From contig JABTUC010000001.1 of the NCBI GenBank assembly GCA_015075545.1, positions 310,001 to 374,000 of the forward strand: a stretch of DNA of 64,000 nucleotides, in the 5' to 3' direction. Positions 23,355-28,422 of this stretch are shown here, one piece after another. The stretch's first letter is position 1; each line of letters begins with the position of its first letter. This DNA comes from Ideonella sp. (GTDB lineage: Bacteria; Pseudomonadota; Gammaproteobacteria; Burkholderiales; Burkholderiaceae_C). A program made the position numbers and the translations under genes. The notes under the pieces were generated by a model. That model was given only the letters and a program-made list of their open reading frames with translations. It made no database searches and was not told the origin of the DNA.

Positions 23355-24230
23355 ATGAGCTATCGATCGATCTTCCGACCCGGGCTGTTCGAGGGCCGCG
23401 TCGTCGTCGTCACCGGCGGCGGCACCGGCATCGGCCGCTGCATCGCGCACGAGCTGGTGAGCCTGGGCGCGGCGGTGGCGATCGTCGGGCGCACGGCCGA
23501 GAAGCTCGAGCGAGTGGCCAGCGAACTGCGCGAGGCGGGCGGCCACAGCAGCACGCACGTCTGCGACATCCGCGAGGAGACCGTGGTGCGCGACACGGTG
23601 GCCGCGGTGCTGGCCGCGCATGGTCGCATCGACGGCCTGGTCAACAACGCCGGTGGGCAGTTCCCGGCGCCGCTGGAGACCATCACCGGCAAGGGCTGGG
23701 ACGCCGTCGTGCGCAACAACCTGACGGGAGGCTTCTTCGTCGCGCGCGAGTGCTACACGCAGTGGCTGCGCGCGCACGCGGCACAGGCCGGCTGCGGCAT
23801 CGTCAACATCATCGCCGACATGTGGAACGGCATGCCGGGCATGGGGCACTCGGGCGCCGCGCGCGCCGGCATGCTCAACCTCACCGAGACCGCCGCGCTC
23901 GAGTGGGCGCCATTGCGCGTGAACGCGGTGGCGCCGGGCATCATCGCCTCCAGCGGCATGGACCGCTACCCGCCGGCCTTCAAGCCGACGCTGCTGGCCG
24001 CGCCGAAGGCGATTCCCGCGCAGCGCATGGGCACCGAGAGCGAGGTGTCGGCAGCGGTGGTGTTTCTGCTGTCACCGGCCGCGAGCTTCATCTCCGGCGC
24101 CTGTCTGCGCGTCGACGGCGCGGGGCCTAACGCGCGGCGCATGTGGCCGCGAACCGGCGCAGCGCCGAGCGAGGCCTTCAACGGCTTTCATCTCGCCGAG
24201 CTGCCGGCGATCCTGCGCGACGAGCCCTGA
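23355..24230 (+). CDS. short-chain dehydrogenase/reductase, AtuB/AtuG-like
   Basis: This 291-residue SDR enzyme has the cofactor motif VTGGGTGIGRCIAHEL, NNAG in LVNNAGGQFPAPLETI, and the later HSGAARAGMLNLTETAALEW helix. The sequence ADMWNGMPGMGHSGAARAG is close to AtuB and AtuG of Pseudomonas acyclic terpene (citronellol) catabolism, as I recall them. The Tyr of the usual YxxxK appears replaced: HSGAARAG stands where YSAAKAG would be, so the classical catalytic Tyr/Lys pair is absent. This is shared by the Atu/DECR-like group. The ATG at 23355 gives MSYRSIFRPGLFEGRV, the usual start. The carboxylase beta gene starts two bases after its stop. Confidence 0.85.
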   Translation: MSYRSIFRPGLFEGRVVVVTGGGTGIGRCIAHELVSLGAAVAIVGRTAEKLERVASELREAGGHSSTHVCDIREETVVRDTVAAVLAAHGRIDGLVNNAGGQFPAPLETITGKGWDAVVRNNLTGGFFVARECYTQWLRAHAAQAGCGIVNIIADMWNGMPGMGHSGAARAGMLNLTETAALEWAPLRVNAVAPGIIASSGMDRYPPAFKPTLLAAPKAIPAQRMGTESEVSAAVVFLLSPAASFISGACLRVDGAGPNARRMWPRTGAAPSEAFNGFHLAELPAILRDEP

Positions 24231-24232
24231 CG

Positions 24233-25849
24233 ATGGCGGCGATCGAGTCGACCGTCTCGCCGCACGACGAAGCCTTCGCGGCCAACCGCGACGGCATGCT
24301 GGCGCTGATCGAGCGCGTGCAGCTCTACCGCCAGCGCGCGGTCGATCGTTCGGCGGCGTCGTGCGCGCGCTTCGAGCAGCGCGGCCAGTTGCTGCCGCGC
24401 GAGCGGCTGGCGCTGCTGCTCGACGCCGGTGCGCCGTTTCTCGAGTTGGCGTCGCTGGCCGGCCTCGGGCTCGACGACCCCGACCTCGACAAGAGCGTGC
24501 CCGGCGGTGGCGTCATCGCCGGCATCGGATACGTGTCTGGCGTGCGCTGCATGGTCACCGCGTCGGACTCGGGCATCGATGCCGGCGCGCTGCAGGCAAT
24601 GGGGCTGGAGAAGCAGCTTCGCATCCAGGAGCTCGCGCTCGACAACAAGCTGCCGTTCGTGCAACTCGTCGAGAGTGCCGGCGCCAACCTGCTGCTGTAC
24701 CGGGTGGAGCACTTCGTCAAGGGTGGCGGCCTGTTCCGCAACCTGGCGCGGCTGTCGGCCGCCGGGCTGCCGGTGGTGACGATCACGCACGGCTCGTCGA
24801 CCGCCGGCGGCGCGTACCAGACCGGGCTGTCGGACTACATCGTGATGGTGCGTGGCCGCTCGCGAGCGTTCCTCGCGGGGCCGCCGCTGCTGATGGCCGC
24901 CACCGGCGAAGTGGCCACCGAAGAGGAGCTCGGCGGCGCCGAGATGCACACCACCGTCTCGGGGCTGGGCGACTACCTGGCCGAGGACGACCGCCACGCG
25001 ATCGGCATCGCGCGCGCGATCCTCGCCAAGATCGACTGGCCGCGGGAGGTTGCGCCGGCGCGCGCGTTCAAGCCGCCGCGTCTCGACCCGCAGGAACTGC
25101 TCGGCCTCGTGCCGCTCGATTGGAAGCGCCCGGTCGACATGAGGCAGGTGATCGCGCGCATCGCCGACGACTCGGACTTCCTCGAGTTCGGTGCCAACTA
25201 CGGCAGCGCCACCGTCTGCGGTCACGTGCGCCTGGAAGGCTGGCCGCTGGGCGTCATCACCAACAACGGGCCGATCGACGTGCCCGGCGCCAACAAGGCG
25301 ACGCACTTCATCCAGAGCTGCTGCCAGTCGCGCACGCCGATCGTCTACCTGCAGAACACCACCGGCTACATGGTCGGCCGCGCGCACGAAGAGGCCGGCA
25401 TGATCAAGCACGGCTCGAAGATGATCCAGGCGGTCACCAACGCCACGGTGCCGCAGATCACGATCCACTGCGGCGCCTCTTTCGGCGCCGGCAACTACGG
25501 CATGTGCGGCCGCGGCTTCCACCCGCGCTTCTGCTTCTCGTGGCCCAACGCCAAGACCGCGGTGATGGGCAGCGAGCAGGCGGCGCGCACGATGGCCATC
25601 GTCACCGAGGCGGCGATGCAGCGCAAGGGCGGCGCGGTCGACCGCGCGCAGATCGACGCGATGCAGCGCGGCATCGTCGAGCGCTTCGAGCGCCAGATGA
25701 GCGTGTTCGTCACCAGCGCGCACCTGCTCGACGACGGCGTGATCGACCCGCGCGATACGCGCGCCGTGCTGGCCGAGGTGCTCGCCATCTGCCGCGAGGG
25801 CGACGCGCGTCAGCCGCAGCGCATGCAGTTCTCGGTGGCGCGGCCGTGA
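24233..25849 (+). CDS. atuC: acyl-CoA carboxylase beta subunit, geranyl-CoA type (AtuC-like)
   Basis: This 538-residue carboxyltransferase subunit moves CO2 from biotin to a branched enoyl-CoA. Features are LLPRERLALLLDAGAPFLEL, the acyl-CoA-binding region HGSSTAGGAYQTGLSDYIVM, and the C-terminal biotin-binding half with NGPIDVPGANKATHFIQSC, GYMVGRAHEEAGMIKHGSKM and CGASFGAGNYGMCGRGFHP. AtuC and methylcrotonyl-CoA carboxylase (LiuB) are close relatives. AtuA at 34400-36229 and the Atu-type SDR favour geranyl-CoA or a similar terpenoid acyl-CoA. The stop TGA overlaps a GTG that opens a rudimentary copy of the alpha-subunit start. Confidence 0.87.
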   Translation: MAAIESTVSPHDEAFAANRDGMLALIERVQLYRQRAVDRSAASCARFEQRGQLLPRERLALLLDAGAPFLELASLAGLGLDDPDLDKSVPGGGVIAGIGYVSGVRCMVTASDSGIDAGALQAMGLEKQLRIQELALDNKLPFVQLVESAGANLLLYRVEHFVKGGGLFRNLARLSAAGLPVVTITHGSSTAGGAYQTGLSDYIVMVRGRSRAFLAGPPLLMAATGEVATEEELGGAEMHTTVSGLGDYLAEDDRHAIGIARAILAKIDWPREVAPARAFKPPRLDPQELLGLVPLDWKRPVDMRQVIARIADDSDFLEFGANYGSATVCGHVRLEGWPLGVITNNGPIDVPGANKATHFIQSCCQSRTPIVYLQNTTGYMVGRAHEEAGMIKHGSKMIQAVTNATVPQITIHCGASFGAGNYGMCGRGFHPRFCFSWPNAKTAVMGSEQAARTMAIVTEAAMQRKGGAVDRAQIDAMQRGIVERFERQMSVFVTSAHLLDDGVIDPRDTRAVLAEVLAICREGDARQPQRMQFSVARP

Positions 25850-26363
25850 CACGCGCGACGCCGTATTCCAAGCTGCTGATCGCGAACCGCGGCGACAACG
25901 CCGCAGGCGTTGCGGCGCAGGGTGACTTCGCGCAAGCGAAGTCGGCCGCAGCCAGTCGGCAGCGTGCGCAACGCAAAGCTGCACCTGGTCCGCGCCAACC
26001 GAGGCGACAACGCCGCAGGCGTTGCGGCGCGATCGCGCAAGCGAAGCGGACGCCAGGCGCACGGCACGCGCAGCGCGCTGATCGGCTGAGGCGACAGCCA
26101 CCCGAGGGCCTGATCAACCGAGGCGACAACGCCGCAGGCGTTGCGGCGCAGGGTGACTTCGCGCAAGCGAAGTCGGCCGCAGCCAAAGCGCACGGCACGC
26201 GCAGCGTGCGGGGCGATCGAGCCGAGCCACCATGTTCACCAAGGTCCTGATCGCCAACCGAGGCGACAACGCCGCAGGCGTTGCGGCGCAGGGTGACTTC
26301 GCGCAAGCGCGCAGCCAGAGCGCACGGCACGCGCAGCGTGCGGGGCGATCGAGCCGAGCCACC
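25846..26363 (+). repeat. tandem palindromic element inserted at the carboxylase alpha gene start
   Basis: Four copies of a GC-rich unit lie here, at about 25884-25953, 25996-26060, 26115-26187 and 26255-26310. Each begins inside AACCGAGGCGA, the Asn-Arg-Gly-Glu codons of a biotin carboxylase N-terminus. The core holds two hairpins: CAACGCC-GCA-GGCGTTG and GACTTCGC-GCAA-GCGAAGTC. Three start-like copies of the gene exist: GTG at 25846 (VTRATPYSKLLIANRG), ATG at 26232 ([12 protein letters not shown]) and ATG at 26364 ([12 protein letters not shown]), of which only the last leads directly into a normal protein. The unit 26232-26363 is a tandem duplication of the gene start carrying the element after codon 11. 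No other gene is present in these 500 bases. Confidence 0.8.
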
Positions 26364-28422
26364 ATGTTCACCAAGGTCCTGATCGCCAACCGAGGCGAGA
26401 TCGCCCGCCGCGTGATGCGCAGCGCGCGCGACCTCGGCTACCGCACCGTCGCGGTGTACTCCACCGCCGACGCCGAGTCATTGCACGTGCGCGAGGCCGA
26501 CCAGGCGGTGTGCATCGGCGAGCCGGCGCCCGCGAGCTCGTACCTCAACATCGCGGCGATCGTCGAAGCCGCGCGCAAGAGCGGCGCCGACGCCGTGCAC
26601 CCCGGTTACGGCTTTCTCGCCGAGAGCGCCGCCTTCGCGCGCGCCTGCCGCAACGCGAAGCTGGCGTTCGTCGGCCCGTCGCCCGAGGCGATCGACGCGA
26701 TGGGCGACAAGGCCGCCGCCAAGCGGCTGATGCACGCCGCGGGCGTGCCGTGCGTGCCGGGCTACGACGGCGACGACCAGAGCACGGCAACGCGCTCGCC
26801 GCGCAGGCCAGCGCATCGGCTACCCGCTGATGATCAAGGCGGTCGCCGGTGGCGGCGGCCGCGGCATGCGGCTGGTGGCCGCGGCCGGCGAGTTCGCCGG
26901 CGCGCTGCGCAGCGCGCAGTCGGAAGCGCAGCACGCGTTTGGCGATGGCGCGGTGCTGCTCGAGCGCGCGCTGGTCGAGCCGCGTCACATCGAGATCCAG
27001 GTGCTCGCCGACCGCCACGGCCACGCGATCCACCTCGGCGAGCGCGATTGCTCGGTGCAGCGCCGCCACCAGAAGCTGATCGAGGAGTCGCCGTCGCCGG
27101 CGGTGAGCGCCGAGCTGCGCGAGCGCATGGGCGCGGCCGCGGTCGCCGCGGTGAAGTCGATCGGCTACGAAGGCGCGGGCACCCTCGAGTTCCTGCTCGA
27201 CGGCGACGGGCGCTTCTACTTCATGGAGATGAACACGCGGCTGCAGGTCGAGCATCCGGTGACCGAGGCGATCACCGGGCTCGATCTGGTGGCGCTGCAG
27301 TTGCGCATCGCCGCCGGCGAGCCGCTGCCGCTGCAGCAGGCCGACGTGCAGCGGCGCGGCCACGCGATCGAAGTGCGGCTGTGCGCCGAGGACGCCGCGC
27401 GCGACTTCATGCCGCAAAGCGGCACGCTCGGCGTGTGGCAGCCGACGCCGCGGCTGCGTGTCGAGCATGCGCTGCACTCGGGCGCCGAGATCGCGCCGTA
27501 CTACGACTCGATGATCGCCAAGATCGTCAGCCACGGTGCGAGCCGCGAGGAGGCCCAGCGCAAGCTGATCGCCGGGCTGGCCGACACGGTGGCGCTCGGC
27601 GTCACCACCAATCAGGCGTTTCTGTTGCGCTGCCTGGCCAATCCGGTGTTCACCGCCGGCGGCGCGACCACCGCGTTCATCGCGCAGCAGGCCGCAGCCT
27701 TGCTGCCGGCCGATGCGAACACCGATCCGCAGACGCTGGCGCTCGCCGCGGCGATGCTGTGGGCGACGGCGTCCGGCGAGCGCCTTGGCGCCGGCGCAGC
27801 GCCGTCGTCGACGTTGTCGCCGCCAGGTTTGCCCTCGTCAGCGCCGTTGTCGCCGGCGTTGTCGGCGTCGTCGCTGGCGATCGCCGCGCGCTTCGAGGTC
27901 GACGGCCGCGCGCACGGCGCGACGCTGGTGCGGCGCGACGGCCAACGCCTCGAAATCACGCTCGACACGCGGCGCCACGAGGTCAGCGTCGTCGAGTTGG
28001 GCCGCCACCACGCGCGCGTCGCCTGCGACGGCGTGGTCGAACGACTGGCCTGGCACCGCGACGGCGAGCGGCTGTGGCTGGCGCGCGAAGGTGTCGCGCT
28101 CGAAGTGCTCGACACCACGCGCGATGCCACGGCGCGCCATGCCGGCGCCGCCGGCGACGGCGCGTTGCGCGCGTCGATGACCGGCCGCGTCGTCGCGGTG
28201 CAGGTGAGCGTGGGCCAGCAGGTTCGTGCGGGGCAGCCGATGCTGACGCTCGAAGCGATGAAGATGGAGCACGTGCACGCGGCGCCGACCGACGGCGTCG
28301 TGAAAGCGTTGCACGTCGGCGTCGGCGACCAGGTGGCTGCGCGCCGCGTGGTGGCCGAGGTCGACGCGGCGCGGCCCGCGACCGGCAGCGCGGCGCCTTC
28401 GCGAACCGAGGAGTCCATGTGA
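26364..28422 (+). pseudogene. atuF: acyl-CoA carboxylase alpha subunit (AtuF-like biotin carboxylase), frameshifted
   Basis: About 686 residues in total: a biotin carboxylase domain ([37 protein letters not shown], then [14 protein letters not shown] and [16 protein letters not shown]), a linker rich in Ser/Pro/Leu, and a C-terminal biotinyl domain with the biotin lysine in EAMKMEH. Two single-base losses, near 26783 and 26812, break the frame between GYDGDDQS and [11 protein letters not shown]; restoring them yields [10 protein letters not shown] in between. Both losses fit shortened short runs, so sequencing error is possible. I start it at the ATG at 26364. An in-frame ATG at 26232 would add 44 residues encoded by the repeat. 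It would be the partner of the beta subunit just upstream. Confidence 0.83.

Follow-up and report, generated by a model that had tools for sequence, protein, structure and literature searches.

How can a gene take several insertions within its first codons and still be left with a start? The question is raised by a 64,000-nucleotide stretch of DNA of the betaproteobacterium Ideonella sp. (GenBank assembly GCA_015075545.1, contig JABTUC010000001.1, positions 310,001 to 374,000, or G000:C1:310001-374000 in our numbering; hereafter the window), in which, as a first-pass annotation had recognized, a palindromic element lies in tandem in the start of a biotin carboxylase gene. Comparison with other genomes revealed an insertion with an empty counterpart, non-orthologous targets, a constrained leader frame, covarying stems and tandem amplification. 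The explanation that, taken as a whole, we consider probable is that the element is a cassette copied between carboxylase genes, where it leaves a translationally coupled leader open reading frame (ORF).

Four tandem units at the carboxylase start

The four GC-rich units that had been noticed start at 25885, 25997, 26116 and 26256 in the window sequence, and their anchor, AACCG(A/C)GGCGA, is seen a fifth time at 26388. Spacings of 112, 119, 140 and 132 give a net insertion of 503 bp at 25896-26398. The insertion point splits IANRGE inside its codon for Glu (GA^G), and Tandem Repeats Finder called a tandem array at 25993-26405. The common anchor proposed earlier does recur, except that the first one is AACCGCGGCGA and not AACCGAGGCGA, a copy of which stands at the end of each of the four units. 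Two hairpins per unit had also been proposed. Each of the four units has a perfect hairpin 1 (CAACGCC-GCA-GGCGTTG), and when up to 3 mismatches were allowed on both strands this hairpin had 8 matches versus 1.07 expected, a number reached in none of 100 shuffles; hairpin 2 is exact in two window units only (25924 and 26155), being decayed in units 2 and 4, and its exact core was found in the own genome only within the array. A third hairpin has to be added, with copies at 26195-26209 and 26327-26341, which together with the tail GGGCGATCGAGCCGAGCCACC lies upstream of the ATGs at 26232 and 26364. Five start-like sites are present where three gene-start copies had been counted; a usable start codon remains in three (GTG 25846, ATG 26232 and ATG 26364), and the remaining two are decayed to RANRGD and LINRGD. 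The parts of the array are as follows, R1 being a covariance model built from 18 units.

25896..26398, plus strand: net insertion of four tandem units, each terminated by a AACCGAGGCGA copy (repeat coordinates; empty site G001:C55)
25896..26007, plus strand: unit 1, with both hairpin 1 and hairpin 2 preserved and the start copy at its end degraded to RANRGD (sequence)
26008..26126, plus strand: unit 2, with hairpin 1 preserved, hairpin 2 degraded and the start copy at its end reduced to LINRGD (sequence)
26127..26266, plus strand: unit 3, complete, with hairpins 1, 2 and 3, tail GGGCGATCGAGCCGAGCCACC and a new start (model R1, 51.4 bits)
26195..26209, plus strand: hairpin 3 of unit 3, GCACGC-GCA-GCGTGC, second copy at 26327-26341 (sequence; stem covaries across units)
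26267..26398, plus strand: unit 4, hairpin 2 damaged, new start running into the gene body (model R1, 51.4 bits)

The array is an insertion that brought a foreign start

In the congener G001, the orthologue of the window gene (89% identical) has no insert and starts with VTPLATPFSKLLVANRGEIALRV, and the empty site lies at G001:C55. The native start, VTRATPYSKLL (VTRATPYSKLLIANRGD), is kept upstream in the window, and the gene now starts with MFTKVL; thus the insert brought a foreign start, and the earlier remark that the later starts are unlike the gene's own is borne out by the G001 orthologue.

An assembly artefact or sequencing error could be suspected behind such an array, as the G000 assembly (3.69 Mb, 13 contigs) is 85% complete and a frameshift lies within the carboxylase itself. 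The first-pass annotation, too, had left room for a unit found nowhere else that would be an artefact. However, the unit with its anchor recurs in many independent assemblies, including that of the named strain Caldimonas tepidiphila YIM 730274 and single-contig genomes such as G157; in the congener G005, a different carboxylase has five tandem units at its start, and G001 itself has one unit at accC. Because independent genomes carry units, chance or assembly origin is excluded for the element, and an artefactual array in the window is extremely improbable.

Units recur at biotin carboxylase starts across Burkholderiales

A strict pattern of anchor plus hairpin 1 was found in 4 of 399 genomes of the family, with none in the reversed control. 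Applied to 84,980 species, it returned 17 stretches, of which 11 (in 10 genomes) consisted of two carboxylase starts flanking a unit and the other six were unrelated. Relaxing the search to a double-start pattern brought up 13 places in 10 of 170 genomes of the family and none in the control. With model R1 at E up to 0.01, 31 matches were obtained in 14 of 18 chosen genomes. Those of at least 39 bits were at biotin carboxylase starts, and four of 27-31 bits were away from known carboxylases: three located elsewhere (L111, L119 and L123), which look like chance, and one at G004:C4. Matches of at least 35 bits were at biotin carboxylase starts wherever the context was readable.

At E up to 1e-4, R1 matched 71 of 299 family genomes and 51 of 141 genera, each matching genome having 1-4 matches at carboxylase starts, a lower bound since 15 candidates per genome were scored. 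Across the order, 4 of 120 genomes matched, namely G000 and one from each of three other families, and all 5 matches in those three families were at carboxylase starts. Among 70 newly scored matches (three extra copies in the G090 and G115 loci not being counted separately), a carboxylase start followed directly after 68, while the other two (L198 and L201) lay less than 40 bases from a contig end; 13 of the 68 were without an intact first start by motif, 12 of them decayed (including the indel-shifted L168) and one, L142, having ambiguous bases. R1 overlooks some units, as the carrier G020 was unfound by the model. Unit length ranged from 108 to 151 bp among 97 compared, about 35 bp of each being the carboxylase start copy, and tandem arrays comprised 4 units in the window, 5 in G005, 3 in G115 and 2 each in G445, G123 and G078.

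Some loci had peculiarities of their own. The 551-bp loci L258 (G020) and L298 (G028) contain shorter, 109-bp units at accC whose own start is nearly identical, and the DNA upstream of the first start there repeats the unit tail, which suggests recent tandem amplification. In L118 and L189 the units sit in another carboxylase subtype, and the duplicated start is likewise MKKV.

In an unbiased census, the DNA upstream of 137 biotin carboxylase genes from 36 genomes of 36 genera was inspected. Motif anchoring succeeded for 135 genes (L312 and L314 had no motif), 12 of which showed a duplicated start (at least 25 of 35 nt); the remaining anchored genes had at most 21 of 35 nt, save one of 23 inside accB, and base-shuffled controls likewise reached at most 21. 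L118 is also duplicated, with two starts 134 nt apart (the script had anchored the first copy), so that 13 of 137 genes in 9 of 36 genomes have units. When the insert trait was mapped on a tree of 144 carboxylases in which carriers are over-represented (97 with the insert), at least 28 changes were required, whereas 200 shuffles averaged 39.9 and never fell below 32, indicating that the insert partly follows descent yet was gained or lost many times. The carriers are accC-, pcc- and mcc-like genes and several other types (labels of our own from sequence signatures, some accC being assigned by an upstream accB), that is, non-orthologous genes hit at the same codon. Since carboxylase paralogues predate the order, the presence of the same element in all of them implies copying between genes.

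The leader frame closes on the new start

Reading frames were compared in 97 distinct units, which are mutually related and were mostly found with R1. In 93 of them the reading frame entered at the first start reaches its stop no more than 22 nt before or 8 nt after the next start, at +5 in 57 (an ATGTT[TRR] overlap), at -4 in 8 and at -14 in 8; the other two frames close at the new start in only 2 and 7 of the 97. The four exceptions are the window, L052 (-24), and L097 and L142 (+16). Most leader ORFs have 32-51 codons.

The two start copies have fared differently. The motif [IVA]L[IV]ANRG was failed by 21 of 97 first copies (one ambiguous base, one natural variant LLIANRG and 19 changed) and by 3 of 97 second copies, all being the natural variant LLIANRG and none changed. 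At a distance of up to 18 nt, a Shine-Dalgarno-like tetramer (GGAG, GAGG or AGGA) accompanies 82 of 97 second starts and 51 of 97 first starts; uninserted genes have one at 22 of 47 starts, and 100 of 720 random 18-mers contain one. TTT codons totalled 64 of 97 in second copies, 27 of 97 in first copies and 15 of 47 in uninserted genes; these totals are the sole open comparison, TTT in new starts being definitional where the leader stops at +5. The behaviour of the frames, start copies and Shine-Dalgarno-like tetramers agrees with selection for termination at, and reinitiation on, the gene, not for the peptide.

The same frame and stem conservation could be claimed for a conserved regulatory leader, in which the hairpins and leader ORF control carboxylase translation (e.g. 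its dose versus the carrier protein) and are kept by selection. The restriction of R1 matches of at least 35 bits, where readable, to one gene family agrees with such a role. So does persistence: a 35-bp direct repeat about 80 bp apart is expected to delete easily, and its presence in 51 of 141 genera therefore suggests benefit or constant regain. On the other hand, the distribution is patchy, with only the 13 of 137 census genes carrying units and none at the G001 orthologue of the window gene or at accC of G002 and G003; first-copy peptides decay (motif changed in 19 of 97 versus 0 of 97 second copies), and carriers span several carboxylase types. We regard this explanation as unlikely, though deserving of attention.

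Stems covary, and no association with Y1 transposases was detected

In 102 distinct aligned units, 94.9% of cells were paired versus 81.5% in shuffles and 19-36% when the stems were slid, and both-side changes numbered 154 cells versus 28.4 in shuffles, figures from an alignment that was fitted to the model and is hence biased toward its structure. Minimum-energy folding of single window units was uninformative (z of -0.23 for unit 4 and -2.82 for unit 3). Against Rfam 15, the best match in window positions 25700-26500 had an E of 0.066 (RF03015), below the gathering score, and 9 of the 11 strict-pattern architecture loci gave none at E up to 0.1. The sub-threshold matches in the window were Transposase-2 at 25878-25947 (E 0.066) and Cupriavidus-1 at 25835-25943 (E 0.2).

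Intergenic DNA of the genus contains further palindromes. GC-rich hairpin chains occur at L005 1440-1800, L006 1495-1570 and L013 1480-1560, and share with the window unit the modules GTTGCGGCGCAGG and GACTTCGC..GCGAAGTC, with changed stems; they probably constitute a separate dispersed palindrome family of the genus. A dispersed repetitive extragenic palindrome (REP) family was considered as the source of the unit and rejected after a DNA search of the own genome, which gave two weaker partial matches outside the array.

These modules, resembling hairpins 1 and 2, are what speaks for an element of the miniature inverted-repeat transposable element (MITE) or REP kind, carried by a transposase that has a strong target preference and duplicates a long segment of the start. 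The Y1 transposase (PF01797, the one transposase family searched) was present in 11 of 20 picked carriers and 8 of 10 picked non-carriers, one of the latter, G020, having later been found to carry an accC unit; it was absent from the carriers G000, G004 and G005 and 6 others of the 20. A link to REP-associated tyrosine transposases (RAYTs) was accordingly dropped, as PF01797 showed no association with carriers. Moreover, no transposase is known to leave target duplications of some 35 bp whose end falls on one and the same codon in different genes. Transposase-driven movement thus appears improbable, more so than a regulatory leader. The G020 genome has 20 Y1 transposase matches, several split into two adjoining fragments at one profile point.

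Copying between carboxylase genes as the proposed route of spread

The preferred explanation, copying between carboxylase genes, can be spelled out. A cassette comprises hairpins, often a Shine-Dalgarno-like GGAG, and a start copy up to GGCGA, and it enters IANRGE sequences at the Glu codon (GA^G). The old start then opens a leader ORF ending on or just before the new start, the gene staying intact, and ribosomes that have translated the leader could terminate and reinitiate on the gene. Copying might proceed by recombination through the conserved start sequences, the route that we prefer. The window array probably derives from one insertion with the foreign start MFTKVL, later amplified to four units of which two decayed.

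A distinctive first start with a differing second start occurs in the window, L087, L093, L110, L137 and L179, which agrees with an insert that comes with a start of its own. Elsewhere both starts often share gene-specific residues, e.g. MFDT, MKKV or MIKK. Several observations weigh against the proposal. Residue 3 agrees between the two starts in 70 of 97 units (21 of 48 without K/K pairs), so that many duplications were own-start or homogenized, which a pure donor model does not predict; the idea of a second start always taken from a donor was dropped on account of this agreement. Own-start duplication or homogenization between direct repeats also fits the tandem arrays. The direct empty-site comparison concerns the window insertion only, and the 97 units are not independent of one another and were mostly recovered with R1. 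The window itself departs from the common pattern: the leader stop falls at +16, the final unit shares the reading frame of the gene, and a GGAG-like motif is missing from the new starts. No transposase (PF01797 only), donor circle or vehicle was seen, and plasmid and phage collections had no match to the window unit, the only unit tried.

Likeness to known systems

Rickettsia palindromic elements (RPEs), the parallel drawn by the first-pass annotation, are carried in frame inside the proteins of many unrelated genes and retained in the product. Like them, the cassette is palindromic DNA of about 100-150 bp, in frame at a coding sequence and open in the frame entered. The parallel fails further on: the cassette is confined to a single codon of a single gene family and provides a new start, the leader frame normally stops there (93 of 97 units), and the protein is made anew without the insert. 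The window is unusual in this respect, because translation from its last unit would continue in frame into the gene.

REPs lie outside genes, scattered in many copies per genome, and are linked to RAYT (Y1) transposases. The cassette shares with REPs and bacterial interspersed mosaic elements (BIMEs) the short imperfect hairpins with compensatory stem changes, and similar intergenic modules occur in the genus; it differs in that R1 matches of at least 35 bits are, where readable, at carboxylase starts and have no PF01797 link. Integrases acting at tRNA genes insert integrative elements that restore the end of the target gene. In the same way the cassette carries a copy of the target segment by which the gene is rebuilt, albeit at the start instead of the end, with about 110-150 bp and no integrase. 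MITEs have terminal inverted repeats and a short target duplication in common with an autonomous transposon; the cassette has hairpins and a duplicated segment of about 35 bp, with PF01797 as the only parent transposase searched. A leader-peptide attenuator would sense a metabolite through its peptide or codons; in the cassette the conservation of the leader peptide itself is not high, the motif being altered in 19 of 97 first copies.

Conserved translational-coupling frame transitions include a 'Biotin carboxylase' cluster of 128 genes in 44 genera (PMC3711429, Table 2). As in those coupled ORFs, stop and start overlap or lie close in the units; the cassette leader is distinct in being a copy of the start of its own gene, split off by the insert, and none such is described in the part of PMC3711429 covered here. 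The cluster listed there could represent the cassette leader or a plain upstream gene, and in the former case the overlap would have been partly seen before. Titles and abstract openings, with few subscription journals among them, contained no account of such a cassette, and none was found for biotin carboxylase with leader peptide and accC.

Tentatively, the cassette might represent a new, protein-less class of minimal mobile DNA, confined to one codon motif of one gene family, moving by recombination via the sequence it copies and made harmless by the rebuilt start and coupled leader ORF; on this classification we remain somewhat reserved. If it is true, an enzyme-less palindromic element would be able to spread among paralogues that it recognizes by a protein motif, and would avoid damage by restoring the start codon. 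Many Burkholderiales biotin carboxylase genes, at the frequency of the census, would then have an overlooked leader ORF, with ambiguous annotated starts there, and fatty-acid synthesis genes, e.g. accC, may be under leader control.

The host gene in the window

The carboxylase and its surroundings are organized as follows.

24143..25849, plus strand: upstream acyl-CoA carboxyltransferase gene, whose TGA overlaps the native GTG of the carboxylase (NCBIfam TIGR01117, E 4e-70, under its cut-off)
25846..25895, plus strand: native biotin carboxylase start (GTG; VTRATPYSKLLIANRG + GA), now the start of the leader ORF (resembles the uninterrupted G001 orthologue)
25846..26250, plus strand: leader ORF across units 1-3, its stop codon beginning 16 nt inside the start at 26232 (reading frames)
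26232..26363, plus strand: unit 3 start with an in-frame 44-residue extension over unit 4 (reading frames)
26364..26798, plus strand: rebuilt start with the opening portion of the biotin carboxylase gene (NF006367, E 1e-59, partial, under the full-length cut-off)
26830..28422, plus strand: rest of the biotin carboxylase/biotin carrier protein in another frame (ORF list, profile match)

The start at 26232, earlier thought to remain in frame with the full gene, is in frame with the start at 26364. It is not in frame with the complete gene, because the carboxylase is frameshifted near 26780-26815 in the assembly, the remainder being the ORF at 26830-28422; the frameshift may be real or a sequencing error. 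Elsewhere in the same genome, accC (L072, G000:C6:637050-637457) is without a unit, and a tail-like GGCGATTGAGCCGAGCCGCC precedes its ATG, perhaps a scar.

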